From the NCBI GenBank assembly GCA_913055795.1, contig CAJXLA010000017.1, forward strand, positions 1 to 36,514: a DNA stretch of 36,514 bases, given 5' to 3'. The position numbers and the translations under genes were made by a program. The notes beneath the pieces are model-generated. The model ran no database searches. It was not told where the DNA came from and worked only from the letters and a program-made list of their open reading frames with translations. Origin of the DNA: an uncultured Alcanivorax sp. Its GTDB lineage: Bacteria > Pseudomonadota > Gammaproteobacteria > Pseudomonadales > Alcanivoracaceae. This document shows, piece after piece, positions 7,373 to 35,122 of the stretch. Position 1 is the stretch's first letter. Every line of letters begins with the position of its first letter.

Positions 7373-7579
7373 ATGGCTGATTCCATCCGGCTCAAACGCA
7401 TCCAGGATCCGGTGGCCGCCGGAGACGGCGCACGGATTCTGGTGGACCGGGAACACAACCAGGCCCGGGTCCTGCGCGAAGTATTGCAGCAGGAAATCGC
7501 CGAGGAACAACGCCCGGGCGAAAGCGCTTCACCGGTTTGTTACCGCGGCGATTTTGAAGACAGCGACAACCGAGGCTGA
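7373..7579 (+). pseudogene. DUF488 (YeaO-like) gene with internal deletion
   Basis: The 68-codon frame begins SIRLKRIQDPVAAGDGARIL then VDR, which matches the N-terminus of DUF488 proteins (typically IRIKRVYDPP...DGxRVLVDRLWPRG). It then jumps directly to EHNQARVLREVLQQ, which matches their C-terminal EEHNNAVVLREVL. The central 50 or so residues are missing, so the junction lies at about codon 26. DUF488 proteins are about 115-120 residues long, and the deleted part holds the conserved core. The remnant follows the rhodanese gene by about 50 bases. Confidence 0.7.
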
Positions 7580-7697
7580 TGGCCGCAATGTCGCGACATC
7601 ACCTTTGACCCCGCGCGCGAAAACCGGAGACACTGCTGGCATCCACTTTCAGCCATGAAGCCCGAATTCGACCGCCAATGGCCCGGGGAGATACGCC

Positions 7698-8162
7698 ATG
7701 AGTTCCGGAAACAAGGTCCTGTTTGCCCTGTTCACATTCGGCCTGGCGGTTATGGCCCAACCGGTGGCGGCCCGGGATGTCACCACCGAACTGCCCGCCG
7801 AGCTCCGCGCATTGCTGCAGGAAGAAATGGTGCAAATCGACGCGGCCATGAAAAGCATCCATAGCGCCATGATTCGCGGACAGCATCAGGTCGTGCAGGC
7901 AAAAGGACAGGCGATTCATGACAGCTTTATCCTGGAGCAGTCCATGACGCCGGAAAAACGCAAGGCGCTGAAAGCCGCTGTGCCGAAGGCGTTTCTGAAA
8001 CTGGACCAGCAATTCCACCAACTCGCCAGGCAACTTGCGAACAGCGCCGGCGCGCGGAATACCGCGAAACAGCAAGAGATCTTCGCGCAAATGACCCAGG
8101 CCTGTGTTACCTGTCACAGCCGTTACGTCGATGAGCGTTTTGATGGACTCAAGCAGCAGTAA
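7698..8162 (+). CDS. Cytochrome c' family periplasmic heme protein
   Basis: A 154-residue exported protein with a signal peptide ending near VAARD (about residue 26). It is helix-rich and carries one heme-binding C136-V-T-C139-H140 motif close to the C-terminus, the placement seen in the four-helix-bundle cytochromes c'. These proteins bind NO or CO or serve as electron carriers in the periplasm. GGGGAGA lies 6 bases upstream of the ATG. The sequence is more divergent than standard cytochrome c', so a related class II-like c-type cytochrome is also possible. It stands alone between the sulfur genes and the ABC exporter. Confidence 0.75.
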   Translation: MSSGNKVLFALFTFGLAVMAQPVAARDVTTELPAELRALLQEEMVQIDAAMKSIHSAMIRGQHQVVQAKGQAIHDSFILEQSMTPEKRKALKAAVPKAFLKLDQQFHQLARQLANSAGARNTAKQQEIFAQMTQACVTCHSRYVDERFDGLKQQ

Positions 8163-8243
8163 CCCGGATCAGACGGTCGTCCAGCTGAACCCGATCAGCT
8201 GGCAAGCTGTTGAAGGCCACCTTTCGTCACTGGACCGGACGGG

Positions 8244-8256
8244 TACAATGCGCGCA
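8244..8256 (+). promoter_or_regulatory. TACAAT -10 element for a probably leaderless ABC-exporter transcript
   Basis: TACAAT at 8244-8249 ends 7 bases before the A of the ATG at 8256, so transcription would start at or next to the start codon. No Shine-Dalgarno sequence is present in the gap. The same arrangement, CGGGTACAAT with identical spacing, occurs before the gene at 35187. No good -35 box is seen. Confidence 0.45.
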
Positions 8257-10088
8257 TGTCACCACCCGCCCAACCCCGTTCCGATACCGGCGGTGAAACG
8301 CCCGGCCGCTTGCTGGGCGTGTTCCGCTACAGCCGCCGGGCCCTGGAACTGGTCTGGACCACCAATCGCCGCCTGACGATCCTGCTCGCCGTGGGCACGC
8401 TGATCGCGGGCCTGCTGCCGGCGGCCGCGGCCAAGGTGGGCCAGTGGATCGTCGACGGCGTGGTGGCCGCCATGGAGGGCAATGGTGACGCCGAGACCGT
8501 GTTCTGGTTCGTGGCCCTGGAAGGCGCGCTCATGGCCGGCATCGCCGGCGCCCAGCGCCTGATTTCGCTGGGGCAGTCCCTGCTGCGCGGGCTGCTGGGC
8601 CAGCGGGTGAACGTCATGATCCTGGACAAGGCGCTCACGCTGCAGCTGGCGCACTTCGAGGATTCGGAATTCTACGACAAGCTCACCCGCGCCCGGCGCG
8701 AAGCCTCCACCCGGCCGCTGGGGCTGGTCAACAAGACCTTCAGCCTGATCCAGAACGCCATCTCGCTGATCAGCTATGCCGCCCTGCTGCTGGCGTTCTC
8801 GCCCTGGGCCGTGGTGATCCTGATCCTGGGCGGCCTGCCCCAGTTCGTGGCCGAGGCGAAGTTCTCCGGCGACGCCTTTCAACTGTTTCGCCGACGCTCG
8901 GCGGACAACCGCCGGCAGATGTATCTCGAAACCGTGCTCGCGCGCGAGGACAGTGCCAAGGAAGTCAAACTCTTCCAGATCGGTCCGTTGCTGCTGGACT
9001 GGTACCGCCGGATCTTCGAACGCATTTACGCCGAGGACCGCGCGCTGACCCTGCGCCGGGAAACCTGGGGTTTCATTCTGGGGCTGCTGGGCACACTGAC
9101 CTTCTACGCCGCTTATGCCTGGATTGTCTGGTCCACCATGCAGGGCCAGCTCAGCCTGGGCGAGATGACCATGTATCTGGCCGTGTTCAAGCAGGGCCAG
9201 TCCGCCGTGAGCGCAAGCCTGACCGCCATATCCGGCATGTACGAGGACAACCTCTATCTGTCCAACCTCTACGAATACCTGGAGCAACCCGTGGAGGGCC
9301 CGACCGGCAGCGCCACCGAGGGCGCGCGCCCCGGCGACGGGGTGCGCTTCGAAAACGTCGGTTTCACCTATCCGGGTAACGAAGAGCCGGCGCTGCACAA
9401 CATCGACCTGCACCTGACTCCGGGCCAGAGCCTGGCCCTGGTGGGCCAGAACGGCTCCGGCAAGACCACGCTCATAAAACTGCTGGGACGGCTCTATGAA
9501 CCCACGGAAGGGCGGATCCTGCTGGATGGCACCGACTTGCGCGACTGGGATCCGCCCGTGCTGCGCCGGCGCATTGGCGTCATCTTCCAGGACTTCATGC
9601 GCTATCAAATGCGCGTGGGCGAAAACATCGGCGCCGGCGACGTGGAGCGTTTCGAGGACACGCAAGGCTGGCGCGAGGCGGCGGAGCAGGGTCTGGCGGA
9701 TGACTTTATCCAAGCACTGCCCGAAGGCTATGAAACCCAGCTCGGCCGCTGGTTCAGCGGCGGCCGCGAACTGTCCGGCGGTCAGTGGCAGAAGATCGCC
9801 GTGGCGCGCGCGTTCATGCGTCGCGGCGCGGACATTCTGGTGCTGGACGAACCCACAGCCGCCATGGACGCCGAAGCGGAAGCACAGGTCTTCCAGCACT
9901 TCCGCGAGATGACCCGCGACCGTATCGCCATTCTCATTTCGCACCGCTTTTCCACGGTGCGCATGGCCGATCAGATCATCGTCATGGAAGAAGGTCGTGT
10001 AATCGAGCGCGGCCAACACGAGGAACTGCTCGCGCTTAACGGCACCTATGCCCGCCTGTTCCGGCTTCAGGCCGCGGGCTACCAGTAA
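8256..10088 (+). CDS. ABC exporter, fused permease and ATPase
   Basis: A 610-residue half-transporter. The N-terminal membrane domain (about residues 40-330) precedes a nucleotide-binding domain with Walker A GQNGSGKTT (397-405), signature LSGGQWQK (about 506-513), Walker B DILVLDEPT (about 526-534) and the switch histidine in ISHRF (about 561-565). Such proteins dimerise in the inner membrane and export lipids, peptides or drugs. The signature reads SGGQWQK rather than the common SGGQRQR; this variant occurs in several exporter subfamilies. It stands alone and the substrate cannot be predicted. The ATG at 8256 directly follows a -10 box, suggesting leaderless translation. Confidence 0.9.
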   Translation: MSPPAQPRSDTGGETPGRLLGVFRYSRRALELVWTTNRRLTILLAVGTLIAGLLPAAAAKVGQWIVDGVVAAMEGNGDAETVFWFVALEGALMAGIAGAQRLISLGQSLLRGLLGQRVNVMILDKALTLQLAHFEDSEFYDKLTRARREASTRPLGLVNKTFSLIQNAISLISYAALLLAFSPWAVVILILGGLPQFVAEAKFSGDAFQLFRRRSADNRRQMYLETVLAREDSAKEVKLFQIGPLLLDWYRRIFERIYAEDRALTLRRETWGFILGLLGTLTFYAAYAWIVWSTMQGQLSLGEMTMYLAVFKQGQSAVSASLTAISGMYEDNLYLSNLYEYLEQPVEGPTGSATEGARPGDGVRFENVGFTYPGNEEPALHNIDLHLTPGQSLALVGQNGSGKTTLIKLLGRLYEPTEGRILLDGTDLRDWDPPVLRRRIGVIFQDFMRYQMRVGENIGAGDVERFEDTQGWREAAEQGLADDFIQALPEGYETQLGRWFSGGRELSGGQWQKIAVARAFMRRGADILVLDEPTAAMDAEAEAQVFQHFREMTRDRIAILISHRFSTVRMADQIIVMEEGRVIERGQHEELLALNGTYARLFRLQAAGYQ

Positions 10089-29000: not shown

Positions 29001-29771
29001 TTAATCTCGAAATTGCTGCTCACGATGCCATTTCAGAAAGTCAGTATTGGGAGAGAACTTCTCCGGCAACAGAAGCTTTTCGCCCTCTCGTGCAACAAAT
29101 GTCTCTCGAATATGGCCATTTCCGCTTTGCTCTTTGATTTCCGATGAAACCAAAAGCTCGAAATTCTCAGAGAAAGATACAAGCCCGATATCAAAAGCCC
29201 TATCGAAAAATGTGCTTAGGCATAGCCCATTACGCGGATTCAACCGGTTCTCTGAATCCTTCGACCAAGGCTTGATATGACTCGCTACAAGCAAACGGGC
29301 ATCCGAGACGCCGGTCATAGCGCAGCGGAATTCATAGGAGGAAAGAACGGCATCTCGAAATAAGTTTTGCCCCTTTCTTCGTTTCGATTTTCCTTCAACC
29401 TCCGGCGCAGAATAGTCTTCTATCCTTTCGGCCTCCCCTTTTTCAAGCCCATATCCTTCAGGGTCAATTCGAAACTGCTCCAGCTGGGTTTCGATTTCCG
29501 GCATAAGGCGGTTGGTTCCCGCCATAAACTCCTGCCATATCGCACGATCGGCAGCTGAAGCGCCCGGAAGCCCCGAGCGCCCCGACCCTGTAATATCTGG
29601 ATCCAGACTAGCCAGATTGGAAAGCTTCATTGCTAGCGCACTGGGAGTCCGCCCAATAGCTTCGGCCGCAGCGATAATCTTTGGGTTGTTCTGATGAAAC
29701 TGCCCGAAAGGAATCTCACAGTAGAGCCCTAACGCAAGCAGAAGCTGCTCTCTCGTCCAGTTATTAGCCAT
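29001..29771 (-). CDS. HNH endonuclease, putative restriction enzyme (HNH_2 type)
   Basis: A 256-residue protein with a C-terminal HNH_2 domain. C150 in YEFRCAMTG, H165 in ASHIKPW and N181 in PRNGLCLS give the betabetaalpha-metal site. The N-terminal 60 residues (WTREQLLLALGLYCEIPFGQ and GRTPSALAMKLSNLASLDP) recur in many bacterial HNH proteins and look like a DNA-reading helical module. The family is annotated as putative restriction endonuclease (COG3440), but few members have been tested. It starts 8 bases after the 117-residue protein's stop codon. Base composition is AT-richer than the metabolic genes next to it, pointing to transfer. Confidence 0.8.
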   Translation of the reverse strand: MANNWTREQLLLALGLYCEIPFGQFHQNNPKIIAAAEAIGRTPSALAMKLSNLASLDPDITGSGRSGLPGASAADRAIWQEFMAGTNRLMPEIETQLEQFRIDPEGYGLEKGEAERIEDYSAPEVEGKSKRRKGQNLFRDAVLSSYEFRCAMTGVSDARLLVASHIKPWSKDSENRLNPRNGLCLSTFFDRAFDIGLVSFSENFELLVSSEIKEQSGNGHIRETFVAREGEKLLLPEKFSPNTDFLKWHREQQFRD

Positions 29772-29779
29772 ATCAAACC

Positions 29780-30133
29780 CTAGTCAAATATGTAACTCAA
29801 AGGATCCCAACCCTTCTTCTCTATTTGCGCGAACCTTTCGAGCAATTCTTTTGCAGAGAGGCTTACCGTGGGAGTCTTATCTGTATGCTCCACGCCTTCC
29901 CACTCATGCCAATCGTGATCCAGCCCGGGATCGTACGAAGACCCAGCAACAAAATCTTCGCGCAACCCCAGCAAACCGATCTCGGATGGAATAAATCCGT
30001 TCTCAGGAAAACGAGTCAGAAGAGAAGTCATCCACTCGACCTGGCTTTCCGTAAAGGTTCCATGGATCACCGCGTCTCCAAATACCTTATTGTTTCCTGC
30101 ATCACGATACATATACGAAATCCGTGTATTCAT
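29780..30133 (-). CDS. Small protein of unknown function in the HNH cluster
   Basis: A 117-residue acidic protein beginning NTRISYMYRDAGNNKVFGDA followed by VIHGTFTESQ, with LGLREDFVAG and DPGLDHDWHEWEG in the middle and a charged end. No named motif is recognised. GGAGG precedes the ATG by 5 bases. The gene lies 8 bases before the HNH nuclease, so the two are very likely co-translated. Proteins of this kind often sit next to nucleases as specificity or inhibitor partners, but nothing in the sequence shows which. Confidence 0.7.
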   Translation of the reverse strand: MNTRISYMYRDAGNNKVFGDAVIHGTFTESQVEWMTSLLTRFPENGFIPSEIGLLGLREDFVAGSSYDPGLDHDWHEWEGVEHTDKTPTVSLSAKELLERFAQIEKKGWDPLSYIFD

Positions 30134-30216
30134 GGTCCCTCCGGTTAAGTCAGCGTGTCTACGCCGAAAATAACCTGGAGCCCCTTCCGCGTCACGAGGG
30201 CGACCGGTCTATCACC

Positions 30217-31149
30217 TCAAAGAAGGCTTCCCTTCCTCCGAGCTAGAAACTCCTCCTTCGGCCAGAGCCGCTGCTCCCTCGGAAGAATCAACTTTGTTTT
30301 GTCGAGCCGTGTCAGCGGGTCGTTCTCTCGCATTCTTCGGTCCAGTTGCCGGGATACATGCCACTTGTAGTCCGGTCCCGGCGCGATGATTTGCTTGTCC
30401 ATGGCCCAATGAATATCGGGAGTTAGCGCCAGCCCATTTCGCGGGTCGTCATTGCCGGCTACGGAAAACGGCTCGATATGGGCGGCCTGCACCATTACGG
30501 ATTCGTCTGGGAGAATGATGCGCGTACCGGTGGCGGCGCAGCGGTAGTCGTAGGCTTCGAGCACAACCCGCCGGAAGGCCGGATCGCGAATATATTGCGG
30601 GGGGGCCTCGCCGACTGCGGGAGCGGACTCGAAGTTGCGAAGCTGATGCTCGTACTGGTTGATCTGCCGGCCGCGCCTAAGCATTTCGCGGATTTCGTCT
30701 GCACTTCGGTCGAACCAGTGCTGGACGATCGCTTCCGCCAGCACTTCCCGCGCTTCGGTGTCGCGCATCAGCTGGTACAGGTCTTCATCCAGCGAGACAT
30801 GGGAGATGTTGCCGAGAACCTGGGACGGCTTGCGGATGGTGTTCAGCCCCTCCAGTACCTGCTCACGCTCCGGCAGCGCGTGCAGGTGCCAGAACCCCTC
30901 GCTTTTCAGATGAAAGAACGGGAAGTACGGGTGTGGATGGTCACCGGGCGCACTGACCGTTCTGAAAAAGCCGTGGAAACGGTCCAACAGTTGCGGCTCG
31001 TATTCGATGCGGTTGGGGCGGTCCGGATTGGCGTCGAACAGGTCGATCACCGCCAGCAGCATGCACATCTTGTGCGGGCTGACCTTGCCGTGGGCCCTGT
31101 TCACGTTCAGCTTGCGAACCTTGTCGAGGTAGGGCCCGAGCTCAGTCAT
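30217..31149 (-). CDS. ScoMcrA-like HNH endonuclease (putative type IV-like restriction)
   Basis: A 310-residue protein. The N-terminal domain (about residues 1-100) has HGKVSPHKMCMLLAVIDLF and a beta-rich HPYFPFFHLKSEGFWHL segment, a combination seen in the N-terminal domains of ScoMcrA-like and COG3440 nucleases. The C-terminal HNH domain has C204 (DYRCAATG), H224 (QAAHIEPF), N238 (DPRNGLALTP) and H247 (DIHWAMD), so the active site looks complete. ScoMcrA cuts modified DNA, but this protein lacks an obvious SRA reader, so modification dependence is only possible. Its ATG overlaps the HIT gene's stop by 8 bases. It is 83 bases upstream of the 117-residue gene. Confidence 0.8.
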   Translation of the reverse strand: MTELGPYLDKVRKLNVNRAHGKVSPHKMCMLLAVIDLFDANPDRPNRIEYEPQLLDRFHGFFRTVSAPGDHPHPYFPFFHLKSEGFWHLHALPEREQVLEGLNTIRKPSQVLGNISHVSLDEDLYQLMRDTEAREVLAEAIVQHWFDRSADEIREMLRRGRQINQYEHQLRNFESAPAVGEAPPQYIRDPAFRRVVLEAYDYRCAATGTRIILPDESVMVQAAHIEPFSVAGNDDPRNGLALTPDIHWAMDKQIIAPGPDYKWHVSRQLDRRMRENDPLTRLDKTKLILPREQRLWPKEEFLARRKGSLL

Positions 31150-31513
31150 ACCGCTGCCTCTCCGGAATCACCCCGCGCACACCACCGGTCGGATCCTCGC
31201 TGTCGCCGCTGTAGCGCGGGACCAGGTGGCAGTGCATGTGGAAGACGGTCTGCCCCGCCGCCTCGCCGCAGTTCATGCCGATCTTGAAGCCATCCGGGGC
31301 ATGGGAGCTCGCCAGCCAGTCGCGGGCGCGGTGGATGAGCTCATCGATGGCGCGGCGCTCGGCTTCGTCCAGGCCGAACCAATCCTCGACGTGGCGCCGG
31401 GGGATGATCAGCAGGTGGCCGGGCGTGACCGGGTTGCGGTCCAGGCGCGCATAGGCCAGGTCGTTCTCCAGCACCGGGTCGGGCAGGCAGAAGGGACAGT
31501 CCGGCGGGGTCAT
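31142..31513 (-). CDS. HIT-family (histidine triad) hydrolase
   Basis: A 123-residue HIT protein. The triad is H92-M-H94-C-H96 in VFHMHCHLVPR, with N81 upstream and a CPFC pair (C6, C9) at the start that may hold zinc. HIT proteins hydrolyse nucleotide conjugates such as AppppA or AMP-lysine. The stop codon lies inside the start of the HNH gene (8-base overlap), so the two are coupled, an unusual partner for a housekeeping HIT enzyme. HIT-HNH coupling may mean that the hydrolase serves the restriction cassette or simply supplies its promoter. Confidence 0.9.
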   Translation of the reverse strand: MTPPDCPFCLPDPVLENDLAYARLDRNPVTPGHLLIIPRRHVEDWFGLDEAERRAIDELIHRARDWLASSHAPDGFKIGMNCGEAAGQTVFHMHCHLVPRYSGDSEDPTGGVRGVIPERQRYD

Positions 31514-31918
31514 GGCCGGCTCCGCCCTGCCTGGGGTGTCTGGCTTACGTTGATGAGTCGGATTGCTGACATCCCTGGTCGCCGGGTTCCTACAACATTG
31601 TTCGTAGAAGGTTAGTACAAATCAGGGGCGAGGCGCGAGGGGCGAGGCGCGAGCCGCCTGCTGGCGCCCTCTTCTGACCAAGCGGAACGGTGGCGGGACC
31701 CGGCAGGAGCTGGTGGGCTGGTCTGGGCGGCTACCCAGGCAGTCCCGCGCTTCATAACGCCTGGCCGAATCCCTGCCCGGCGCTTGCGGCCAGGGCGGGC
31801 GCTGGAGCCCCGGTGCAATGGCCCGTAAAACGACTGTGGTTGATCGGGCTCAAATCGGTGAATTCGACCGGCGTTTATAATGGGGGGCACCAACGACACT
31901 CAGTAAAGGAGGTTCAGC
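31514..31918. other. 405-bp intergenic region with heptamer repeats and a promoter
   Basis: This divergent spacer holds the promoters for the HIT gene (minus) and the DUF465 gene (plus). A three-unit heptamer tract occupies 31630-31653. TATAAT at 31876-31881, about 38 bases before the DUF465 ATG, is a consensus -10; a -35 at the right distance is poor. No gene is seen. Confidence 0.6.
31630..31653 (+). repeat. GAGGCGC heptamer tract, three units
   Basis: The tract reads GAGGCGC, GAGGGGC, GAGGCGC, then GAG. It belongs to the same heptamer family as the eight-unit array at 34014 and the three-unit tract at 34860. Confidence 0.75.
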
Positions 31919-32276: not shown

Positions 32277-32400
32277 ATGGCTCTGGTATTCCCGTTCGGC
32301 CCCAATGTGCGTTATGACCGGCTCAACTCGCCGCGGCGGTTGAACGGCGAGGCGCGGCTGGTGGATGGAGGCCTTCGAGCTGGACTTCACGGTCTGGAGC
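32277..32400 (+). pseudogene. Truncated copy of the gamma-glutamylcyclotransferase-like gene
   Basis: The DNA closely matches the first part of the gene at 33477. The peptide MALVFPFGPNVRYDRL then NSPRRLNGEARLVD corresponds to MALVFQFGSNVRYDRL then NSPQRLNGDARLVD of the full gene. About 14 bases are then deleted, after which the match resumes in another frame (EAFELDFTVWSEG). Homology ends near 32400. The fragment is a direct repeat about 1.2 kb upstream of the intact copy, and the VapBC genes lie between the two. Confidence 0.85.
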
Positions 32401-32410
32401 GAGGGCCAAA

Positions 32411-32625: not shown

Positions 32626-32663
32626 ATCATGATGTTTTGATGTTCAACACGAGGCATCATGAT
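32626..32663. promoter_or_regulatory. Likely VapBC operator: two ATCATGAT palindromes
   Basis: ATCATGAT occurs at 32626-32633 and 32656-32663, exactly 30 bases apart, about three helical turns. The second copy overlaps the VapB start codon inside a longer palindrome, CATCATGATG. The arrangement suits cooperative binding by a ribbon-helix-helix antitoxin and would link repression with the start site. Confidence 0.55.
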
Positions 32664-32931
32664 GCGTACCACACTGACTATTGACGACAACATACTGAAA
32701 AACCTCAAAAAGATGGCCCAGGAGTCGGGCCGTCCCTTCAAGGACGTGGTCAATGAGGTTCTGGTGCGCGGCCTGTCTGCCACGGAACGCGGCGACCAGG
32801 TTGAACCCTATCGTCTGGTGCCCGCGTCCATGGGTGCGGCCCAACCGGCAGTGGACCTGAACAAGGCGCTGCAGCTCGGTGATGCGCTGGAAGATCAAGC
32901 CATCGCGGAGAAGCTGGAGCGGCGGAAATGA
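32662..32931 (+). CDS. vapB: VapB-type ribbon-helix-helix antitoxin
   Basis: An 89-residue protein with an N-terminal ribbon-helix-helix fold (MRTTLTIDDNILKNLKKMAQ, then EVLVRGL) and a C-terminal toxin-binding tail. It represses the operon and inhibits the PIN toxin. Two ATGs lie side by side (32659, 32662); the second is better spaced from GAGG at 32651-32654. The stop codon overlaps the toxin start (ATGA). Confidence 0.85.
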   Translation: MRTTLTIDDNILKNLKKMAQESGRPFKDVVNEVLVRGLSATERGDQVEPYRLVPASMGAAQPAVDLNKALQLGDALEDQAIAEKLERRK

Positions 32932-33410
32932 TCCTGGTCGACGCCAACCTGCTCGTCTATGCCGTGAACGGGGATTCGCCCTTTCATGATCAGGCCCGGC
33001 AATGGTGGGAGGAATCTTTGTCCGGGCACGAGCTGGTGGGGCTGCCCTGGGCGGTTATCCTGGCTTTCCTGCGCGTCACCACGCATCGCCGGATCTTCGA
33101 CAGGCCACTGGAGCCGGAGCAGGCTCTGGGGTACGTCGATGAATGGCTGAATCTCCCGATCTGCCGAACACCGCAACCCACGGACCGGCACTGGCCCGTT
33201 TTGCGCAATCTTCTGGTGCAATCCGGTACAGCCGGCAATCTGACCACCGACGCTCATCTCGCCGCGCTCGCGCTGGAGCATGGTGCGACCCTGTGCTCCT
33301 CGGACAACGACTTCCAGCGTTTCCCGGGCATCGCGTTCCACAATCCCCTGGCGGACATGGGTGGCAATGGCGTTCACGAAGATCGCGGGGCCTGGTCTGC
33401 TCGGGGTTGA
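32928..33410 (+). CDS. vapC: VapC-type PIN-domain ribonuclease toxin
   Basis: A 160-residue PIN nuclease. Acidic residues include D5 in ILVDANLLVYAV, D108 in LTTDAHLAALALEHG and D126/D128 in SSDNDFQRFPGI, matching the family's metal site. VapC toxins usually cut tRNA or rRNA. Its ATG overlaps the antitoxin stop codon. The last 20 residues after HNPL (ending in ADMGGNGVHEDRGAWSARG) extend past the usual VapC end and look like read-through into neighbouring DNA. The pair lies between two copies of an unrelated gene. Confidence 0.9.
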   Translation: MILVDANLLVYAVNGDSPFHDQARQWWEESLSGHELVGLPWAVILAFLRVTTHRRIFDRPLEPEQALGYVDEWLNLPICRTPQPTDRHWPVLRNLLVQSGTAGNLTTDAHLAALALEHGATLCSSDNDFQRFPGIAFHNPLADMGGNGVHEDRGAWSARG

Positions 33411-33476: not shown

Positions 33477-34013
33477 ATGGCTCTCGTTTTCCAGTTCGGC
33501 TCCAATGTGCGTTATGACCGGCTCAATTCGCCGCAGCGGCTGAACGGCGATGCACGGCTCGTCGATGTGGTGCGCACGCGCGAGGCCTTCGAGCTGGACT
33601 TCACGGTCTGGAGCGAGGGCAACGGCTGTGCCGCGGCCGATATCGTGCCGGGGCGCGGGCGCTCGCTCTGGGGCGTGCTCTATGAGGTGCCGGATTTCCT
33701 GATCGCCACCGAAACGGCCGGCGGGCGGCGGTCCTTCGACGAGATCGAGTGCGAGTACGTGCGGCGTTCGATCACGGTGGTCAGCGGCGACGGCCATGGC
33801 GTGGAAACCGAGGCGCTGACCTATAGGGTGCCGGAGAAACGCTTTGATCTGCGCACCGGCATCGATTACGTAACCCATATTCTCACCGGCCTGCGCGAGC
33901 GTGAGGTGCCGGCCGAGTACATCGACTATGTGCACGGGCGGATTCTGGCGAATAATCCGGAGCTCAAGGACGAGCTCAAAGAAGAAAGCGGAAAGATGAA
34001 AGCAGGAAGTTGA
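33477..34013 (+). CDS. Gamma-glutamylcyclotransferase-like (AIG2/GGCT fold) protein
   Basis: A 178-residue protein of the GGCT-like family. Recognisable parts are FQFGSNVRYDRLNSP (the YGSN-type substrate loop), RSLWGVLYEVPDFLI, RRSFDEIECEYVRR and TYRV, plus a helical C-terminus with VPAEYIDYVHGRILANNPEL. The family cleaves gamma-glutamyl compounds to 5-oxoproline or acts on related amides. I chose the ATG at 33477; no good ribosome site is visible there, and TTG at 33471 is an alternative. A truncated copy of the gene's first 140 bases lies at 32277. The stop is followed immediately by the heptamer array. Confidence 0.75.
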   Translation: MALVFQFGSNVRYDRLNSPQRLNGDARLVDVVRTREAFELDFTVWSEGNGCAAADIVPGRGRSLWGVLYEVPDFLIATETAGGRRSFDEIECEYVRRSITVVSGDGHGVETEALTYRVPEKRFDLRTGIDYVTHILTGLREREVPAEYIDYVHGRILANNPELKDELKEESGKMKAGS

Positions 34014-34069
34014 GAGGCGCGAGGCGCGAGGCGCGAGGCGCGAGGCGCGAGGCGCGAGGCGCGAGGCGC
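34014..34069 (+). repeat. GAGGCGC heptamer array, eight perfect units
   Basis: Eight identical copies of GAGGCGC start at the base after the preceding gene's stop codon, followed by GAG. Shorter tracts of the same heptamer lie at 31630-31653 and 34860-34880. Copy number is likely to vary between strains through slippage. Confidence 0.95.
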
Positions 34070-34208
34070 GAGAGTAAAATGCCGGTCCATCCTCGCCCTG
34101 GCAAGGGGAGTTAGAAGGGATCCCGGTTGGTCAACAAACGAACGCACCGGCACCAACGGCACGCCGCCTGATCTCTTTCAAAACAGTACGCTTTAATTAT
34201 TTCTCTCT

Positions 34209-34838: not shown

Positions 34839-34859
34839 TGCGGCTTCTCACTAAGGGAC

Positions 34860-35122
34860 GAGGAGCGAGGCGCGAGGGGCTAGAAAAAATACCCCAGTCC
34901 AGATAACTACACAGAGAGCACGGAGACCACAGAGACTGAAAAAACTCACCTCTGTGCTCTCTGTGGCCTCTGTGGTTACTTCAGTTTCATCGCTCTGCCC
35001 CAACCGTTGGAGGTTGGCTTGAGGTTCTGGAAGGAACCCCTCCTCGGTCCTCCCCTTGGGAAGGGAGGAAGGGATTTTGACGACCCCTCCTTTGTTTTTC
35101 CTCCCCTTGCCAGGGGAGGAAA
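34860..35122. repeat. Composite repeat region with three repeat families
   Basis: The 348-bp spacer 34839-35186 has no gene and holds three dispersed repeat types. First, GAGGAGC, GAGGCGC and GAGGGGC heptamers at 34860-34880. Second, an imperfect inverted repeat of CACAGAG-type arms at 34905-34934 and 34950-34976 (about 22 of 30 positions agree). Third, two CCTCCCC hairpins, at 35048-35069 (9-bp stem, 4-base GGG-type loop) and at 35097-35122 (TTTCCTCCCCT and AGGGGAGGAAA, 11-bp perfect stem, 4-base loop). The clustering suggests a site that tolerates insertion of small elements. Confidence 0.75.

Follow-up and report, generated by a model that had tools for sequence, protein, structure and literature searches.

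A HIT-family gene is a recurrent partner of SBD-HNH genes encoding predicted phosphorothioate-dependent restriction enzymes

Results

A two-gene unit of HIT and SBD-HNH genes

The window analyzed here is a 36,514-nucleotide stretch of DNA from an uncultured Alcanivorax sp. (contig CAJXLA010000017.1, assembly GCA_913055795.1), in which a gene of the HIT family directly precedes the gene of an HNH nuclease with an N-terminal sulfur-binding domain (SBD). The HIT gene is a recurrent partner of this known kind of enzyme, SBD-HNH, and the pairing is new. The two genes likely constitute an operon that would restrict phosphorothioate (PT)-modified DNA, with the HIT protein serving the nuclease by nucleotide hydrolysis, and an AT-rich gene pair just downstream would be separate from it. 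A first-pass annotation of the sequence had joined all four genes into one cassette, a modification-dependent or regulated restriction system of unknown type. The four minus-strand open reading frames (ORFs) that it described were confirmed, as were the 8-base overlap, the 8-base gap between the 117-amino-acid (aa) ORF and the second HNH gene, and the 83-base spacer between the two gene pairs (30134-30216):

31142-31513, minus strand: HIT gene, 123 aa (Pfam HIT, E = 1.5e-21), triad invariant in an alignment of 11 relatives (A2)
31142-31149, minus strand: 8-base overlap, where the stop region of HIT meets the start of SBD-HNH, read from the sequence
30217-31149, minus strand: SBD-HNH gene, 310 aa, with the SBD at residues ~1-145 and the HNH domain at ~185-305
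30919-31074, minus strand: SBD pocket codons, residues 26-77, bracketing His26, Lys27, Phe76 and Pro77
29780-30133, minus strand: 117-aa ORF, function unassigned, a mobile-element gene outside the HIT/SBD-HNH unit
29001-29771, minus strand: second HNH gene, 256 aa (PADLOC HNH PDLC04132, E = 4.4e-101), an independent gene

The first nuclease is a predicted PT-dependent enzyme

The SBD-HNH protein matched the NCBIfam model PT-DNA_restrict (NF045808) over residues 9-303 (E = 2.8e-31). Its score of 108.7 bits lies under the strict cut-off of 180 of this "exception"-type model, which was built for a narrower subgroup, and points to a separate subfamily, not to absence of the SBD-HNH fold. The SBD matched PDB entry 8h0l (SBD-Hga on phosphorothioate DNA) with E values of 2e-24 as a single sequence and 5e-37 as a profile, and Foldseek ranks 1 to 9 for the AlphaFold model were all SBDs, those of Hga (8h0l, at the top), SprMcrA and ScoMcrA. 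The sulfur pocket of ScoMcrA consists of H116, R117 (mostly Lys among homologs), Y164 and P165 (PMC6224610); mapped by eye, these residues correspond to His26, Lys27, Phe76 and Pro77 here. His26, Lys27 and Pro77 were invariant across ten relatives (alignment A1), and Y164 is poorly conserved among ScoMcrA homologs because it also touches the core sequence (PMC6224610). The C-terminal nuclease domain matched Pfam HNH_2 (E = 2e-8), with His224, Asn238 and His247 invariant across the 10 relatives in alignment A1.

No SRA domain was detected by Pfam in the 310-aa protein, giving it the layout of EcoWI and SprMcrA, not that of ScoMcrA. Orthology to ScoMcrA was ruled out on this ground, so that the earlier label "ScoMcrA-like" holds for the SBD and HNH domains and fails for their arrangement. 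A search for DndC gave no match in the genome that carries the window (86.7% complete) and nothing over the cut-off in eight other SBD-HNH-carrying genomes, as expected, since a PT-cutting enzyme would attack PT-marked self DNA. A self-modifying PT system was rejected because DndC was not found in this incomplete assembly. Known SBD-HNH enzymes have few dnd neighbors (<3.6%; PMC7461809), and those of other bacteria restrict PT DNA (PMC7461809; PMC6224610). No SBD-HNH relative was confirmed in viral contigs, and E. coli genomes gave no DNA match. The domain matches and pocket residues strongly support the first nuclease as a predicted PT-dependent type IV restriction enzyme. Modification dependence, as proposed in the first-pass annotation, is thereby retained for the HIT/SBD-HNH half and dropped for a four-gene, two-nuclease system, and "unknown type" gives way to a definite, if predicted, assignment.

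The HIT protein belongs to a subfamily distinct from HinT

In the HIT protein the triad H92-x-H94-x-H96 is intact and invariant in alignment A2, and it is accompanied by a CxxC motif at residues 6-9 and a C-terminal GD..P.GGVRgViP..xY signature. The protein lies outside the HinT equivalog of purine nucleoside phosphoramidases (36.6 bits versus a cut-off of 206). In a tree with weakly supported shallow branches, the subfamily branched apart from the HinT-type and other HIT proteins of the same genomes. The nearest solved structures were of the Hint/Fhit/Ap4A-phosphorylase type, with no aprataxin among them. We regard the protein as a HIT nucleotide hydrolase and infer its role beside the nuclease.

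PADLOC returned a weak, domain-level match to ThsC (E = 2e-10). Neither TIR nor ThsA was present among the window neighbors of the HIT gene, and Thoeris type II was ruled out because the ThsA/ThsB partners are not present. A Thoeris-like arrangement was observed on a Gordonia terrae plasmid (L154, 3513-5023), where a ThsB-type TIR gene overlaps the gene of a HIT protein with a C-terminal region of two transmembrane segments (PADLOC PDC-M50A).

HIT genes recur next to SBD-HNH genes

A HIT gene was found within 300 bases at 7 of 21 SBD loci, the window being one of the seven, versus 0 of 45 control loci, whose HNH_2 proteins had no SBD match (Fisher p = 1.5e-4). At six loci (the window, L004, L007, L018, L022 and L023) it abuts the SBD-HNH gene immediately upstream on the same strand. 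In HTCC5015 (L004), the HIT and SBD-HNH proteins are 65% and 53% identical to those of the window, and their genes (7577-8008 and 8001-8936) likewise overlap by 8 bases; we read the 8-base overlap in the window as translational coupling. The other abutting pairs are in a marine metagenome-assembled genome (L007) and at L018/L137, L022/L135 and L023/L136. Both Thiobacillus genomes, whose SBD loci are unlinked (L005 and L006), have a member of the same HIT subfamily at another site. Mapped onto the SBD tree, HIT linkage required 6 changes, at least 5 of them forced by supported branches, and this scatter indicates that the HIT pairing was gained or lost repeatedly. For neighboring genes, a longest-ORF heuristic was used, which may list spurious ones; HIT, SBD and HNH calls came from hidden Markov model (HMM) matches.

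Adjacency of HIT and HNH genes might instead be incidental, if a generic, mobile HIT gene frequently ends up in defense islands. Consistent with this view, two thirds of SBD loci lack HIT, viral contigs hold many members of the HIT subfamily, most of them without an HNH or SBD neighbor, and HIT lies downstream of SBD-HNH on the opposite strand in L008 and ~3 kb away in L009. However, six diverse loci share the same gene order with abutting or overlapping starts, none of the 45 HNH controls had a HIT gene, and HIT-nuclease fusions recur (see below). We therefore consider an incidental association unlikely.

Some SBD genes were found in other settings. In two genomes of one genus, SBD-HNH lies directly downstream of a small S-adenosylmethionine-dependent methyltransferase gene (L142, 4482-6230; L143, 4800-6548). 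One genome (G047) carries three diverged SBD-HNH genes in tandem (L145, 5075-7747). In L144 (1267-4650), the SBD is fused to a PADLOC PDC-S36 domain that replaces HNH; an exonuclease-like ORF is present, and a member of the same HIT subfamily lies ~2 kb downstream.

The same HIT subfamily accompanies other nucleases

Searching 399 Pseudomonadota genomes with a profile of the HIT subfamily revealed HNH-HIT fusion proteins in L122, L124, L126, L127 and L129, and another genome contributed L134. These proteins, encoded on chromosomes and in prophages, comprise a conserved ~120-aa N-terminal domain, a PF01844 HNH domain and a C-terminal HIT domain. Such fusions also made up 12 of the 80 viral-contig HIT loci. 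On plasmids of Polaromonas, Aromatoleum (4-base overlap), Hymenobacter and Persicobacter, HIT genes abut another HNH family of 338-351 aa with an "ATYKFA" N terminus, which occurs in Betaproteobacteria and Bacteroidota. The loci were as follows:

L122 4637-5620: HNH-HIT fusion
L124 5365-6351: HNH-HIT fusion
L126 4821-5807: HNH-HIT fusion
L129 4545-5597: HNH-HIT fusion
L134 19-1014: HNH-HIT fusion
L177, L180-L183, L185, L186, L191, L192, L196, L204, L209: HNH-HIT fusions on viral contigs
L148 3986-5453: plasmid HIT+HNH two-gene unit
L151 3989-5361: plasmid HIT+HNH two-gene unit
L152 2945-4330: plasmid HIT+HNH two-gene unit
L153 2909-4297: plasmid HIT+HNH two-gene unit
L120 2870-6445: 1192-aa HIT-PLD-ResIII helicase-DUF3427 fusion with an N-terminal HIT domain (PADLOC mREase_IV, E = 5e-109)

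We take the PLD-helicase-DUF3427 architecture of L120 to resemble SauUSI-like type IV restriction helicases. Among the viral fusions, L191 adjoins a Cas9-like ORF and L177 a Vsr-like ORF. By HMM, an HNH or SBD match accompanied 13 of 29 cassette-type HIT loci from cells and plasmids; in the fetched flanks of 21 loci encoding other HIT families there was none. Further nuclease-linked cassette-type HITs were L075 (the same gene as L120) and four plasmid cases identified by annotation. The HIT set was partly picked via SBD genomes, and the phylum and plasmid searches were independent of SBD.

Because the partners of HIT vary (SBD-HNH, HNH-HIT, HIT-PLD-helicase-DUF3427 and the other HNH family) and a DNA break is common to all of them, the HIT protein might process DNA ends instead of handling sulfur-modified nucleotides. 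Aprataxin is a DNA-AMP hydrolase, and an aprataxin-like activity on adenylated ends could modulate ligase repair of nuclease cuts. We judge this improbable, since the closest solved HIT relatives are of the Hint/Fhit/Ap4A-phosphorylase type and do not include aprataxin.

Alternatively, HIT could be a regulatory sensor or hydrolase of nucleotides that controls the nuclease, for instance through a dinucleotide or NAD-derived signal altered by infection. Such a role was proposed for ThsC by the PADLOC authors, who found HIT in 2.4% of Thoeris systems (PMC8565338); the TIR protein ThsB next to a HIT protein with two transmembrane segments on the Gordonia plasmid fits it, as do direct HNH-HIT fusions without another evident partner. 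Yet the genes recognized beside the HIT/SBD-HNH pairs examined included no TIR, cyclase or other source of a signal, and EcoWI-type SBD-HNH enzymes function without a partner (PMC7461809). We regard this sensor role as plausible but rather doubtful.

The AT-rich gene pair is best read as a separate insertion

Both downstream genes are AT-rich, as noted at first pass: GC content is 0.475 in the 117-aa ORF and 0.498 in the second HNH gene versus 0.69 in HIT and 0.60 in SBD-HNH, and GC at third codon positions (GC3) is 0.51 and 0.50 versus 0.90 and 0.76. A search of the four-gene block gave no sigma-70-like promoter, and terminator-like sites within it were not above chance. The 117-aa protein had no match in Pfam, PADLOC, NCBIfam or PHROGs, a scan of viral contigs with it gave none either, and its AlphaFold model was too weak (mean pLDDT 51) to assign a fold. 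Its relatives occur on plasmids, including those of Bdellovibrio and Mycobacterium, and in Brevundimonas jumbo phages, and the chromosomal ones adjoin YqaJ-like or PAAR-like genes. An HNH gene near such a relative was seen only in L176, on the opposite strand and similar in the HNH domain only.

The second HNH domain resembles PDB entry 6yex. His165 and Asn181 are kept, and Phe189 replaces the third histidine of the triad (alignment A4), which is present in 7 of 7 aligned relatives; by this substitution the protein is probably damaged or impaired. The earlier statement that both nucleases retain their His and Asn residues is thus borne out for the first alone, in which His224, Asn238 and His247 all persist. 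Elsewhere, proteins related to the second HNH (PDLC04132) are either free-standing or the C-terminal part of a longer protein, and one lies near a C5-methyltransferase-like ORF. None of the seven loci examined had a 117-aa gene or HIT beside it, so that the proposed partnership of the 117-aa gene with this nuclease is not conserved.

The two gene pairs occurred together in no other genome, plasmid or viral contig searched; the four-gene order is therefore peculiar to the window among these sequences, and the halves occur independently elsewhere, which is part of what the first-pass annotation had named as its own refutation. The simplest reading of the break in GC content and of this independence is that an AT-rich segment was inserted later, downstream of the HIT/SBD-HNH pair. 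A single regulated two-nuclease restriction system of all four genes, as first proposed, would accord with their common strand, short gaps and compact 2.5-kb block. It is very improbable in our view, given that no other locus joins the halves, that GC and GC3 break sharply between them, that members of the 117-aa family are found with no HNH partner and relatives of the second HNH with neither a 117-aa gene nor HIT, and that the second HNH protein no longer has its third His.

Other features of the window

The surroundings of the HIT/SBD-HNH pair include a gene for a DUF465 protein and AMP-ligase and amine-oxidase genes. The 5' part of a GGACT/AIG2-like gene is duplicated at 32277-32406 and 33477-33620 (88% and 100% identical blocks), and a small ORF and a PIN-domain toxin-antitoxin-like pair lie between the copies (32659-33410), which suggests an insertion with partial gene duplication. 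A 14-base GC-rich tandem repeat, AGGCGCGAGGCGCG, is dispersed at 31624-31671, 34001-34076 and 34854-34887.

Discussion

We propose a two-gene operon, HIT followed by SBD-HNH (30217-31513), as the conserved unit. The SBD pocket of His26, Lys27 and Pro77 would bind the Rp sulfur of foreign PT-DNA carrying Dnd- or Ssp-type marks, and the HNH domain would cut near the bound sulfur, such that DNA from PT-modifying donors would be restricted in vivo. Having no detectable PT writer (DndC), the host could carry such an enzyme. The translationally coupled HIT protein would most likely hydrolyze a nucleotide that is made by the nuclease or controls it. In one form, it would desulfurate deoxynucleoside 5'-phosphorothioates from degraded PT-DNA, yielding deoxynucleoside monophosphate (dNMP) and H2S; in the other, its substrate would be a nucleotide gating the nuclease. 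Nucleotide desulfuration is a concrete and testable role, since human HINT1 forms dGMP and H2S from dGMPS (kcat 0.023/s, kcat/Km 65 per M per s; PMC8775712) and products of the dGMPS class are expected from full breakdown of PT-DNA. Within the operon model, nucleotide-based control is quite conceivable, if short of an even chance; clean-up of modified nucleotides is nearly as likely, and other HIT roles are somewhat unlikely. It is also rather unlikely, though worth stating, that modification-dependent nucleases in general (SBD-HNH pairs, HNH-HIT fusions and HIT-PLD-helicase-DUF3427, together "HIT-coupled nucleases") use this mobile HIT subfamily as an accessory. In SBD-HNH pairs it would then desulfurate PT nucleotides released from restricted DNA and so connect restriction with the salvage of modified nucleotides or the release of H2S.

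Several points weigh against the operon model. The full-length AlphaFold model of the SBD-HNH protein (mean pLDDT 47.9) is poor beyond the SBD, and a PT writer could be missing from the 86.7% complete assembly. PT dependence is weak or absent for some SBD-HNH proteins in the literature, and that of the present subfamily is a prediction from sequence. The absence of an adjacent HIT gene from two thirds of SBD loci implies that HIT is dispensable. Moreover, the HIT subfamily also accompanies nucleases without known PT targeting, so that a general role, such as nucleotide control or the processing of DNA ends, is no less likely than desulfuration. Among the 80 viral-contig HIT loci, those that are not fusions had no HNH or SBD found nearby; both observations disfavor a PT-only substrate.

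PT-dependent restriction enzymes have so far been treated as single-gene systems, to which a recurrent, co-translated HIT would add a second component. Given the HIT chemistry (dNMP plus H2S), the fate of sulfur-modified nucleotides after restriction is directly testable. The fusion or adjacency of HIT to nucleases of several unrelated kinds suggests a common, unexplained need for its activity in DNA-targeting defense. The main survey of SBD-HNH enzymes (PMC7461809) does not mention HIT, and in the open-licence literature we found no description of HIT paired with phosphorothioation, type IV restriction or HNH, although an earlier one is possible. The sole precedent found for HIT in defense is ThsC of Thoeris type II (PMC8565338). 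There, too, a HIT gene is added to a known defense system, but the partner is a TIR/ThsA system and not a restriction endonuclease.

Among known systems, EcoWI, SprMcrA, Ksp11411I and Bsp305I (NF045808) share with the window enzyme an N-terminal SBD and a C-terminal HNH domain in ~300 aa, the pocket His/Lys/Pro and the lack of a linked dnd cluster. In contrast, the window SBD-HNH represents a distinct subfamily (108.7 versus 180 bits), its SBD is nearer to Hga than to ScoMcrA or SprMcrA, and its gene is coupled to HIT. ScoMcrA (SBD-SRA-HNH) has the same SBD, HNH and sulfur-pocket residues, whereas the window protein lacks SRA and measures only 310 aa. SBD-Hga (8h0l) is alike in SBD fold and sequence, but for Hga only the SBD has been solved. 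The HIT protein shares its fold and HxHxH triad with HINT1/Hint hydrolases; unlike housekeeping HinT, its subfamily has the C-terminal GGVR signature and is mobile and nuclease-linked. Finally, the SauUSI-like PLD-helicase-DUF3427 type is absent from the window, and its relative L120 carries the same HIT subfamily at its N terminus.

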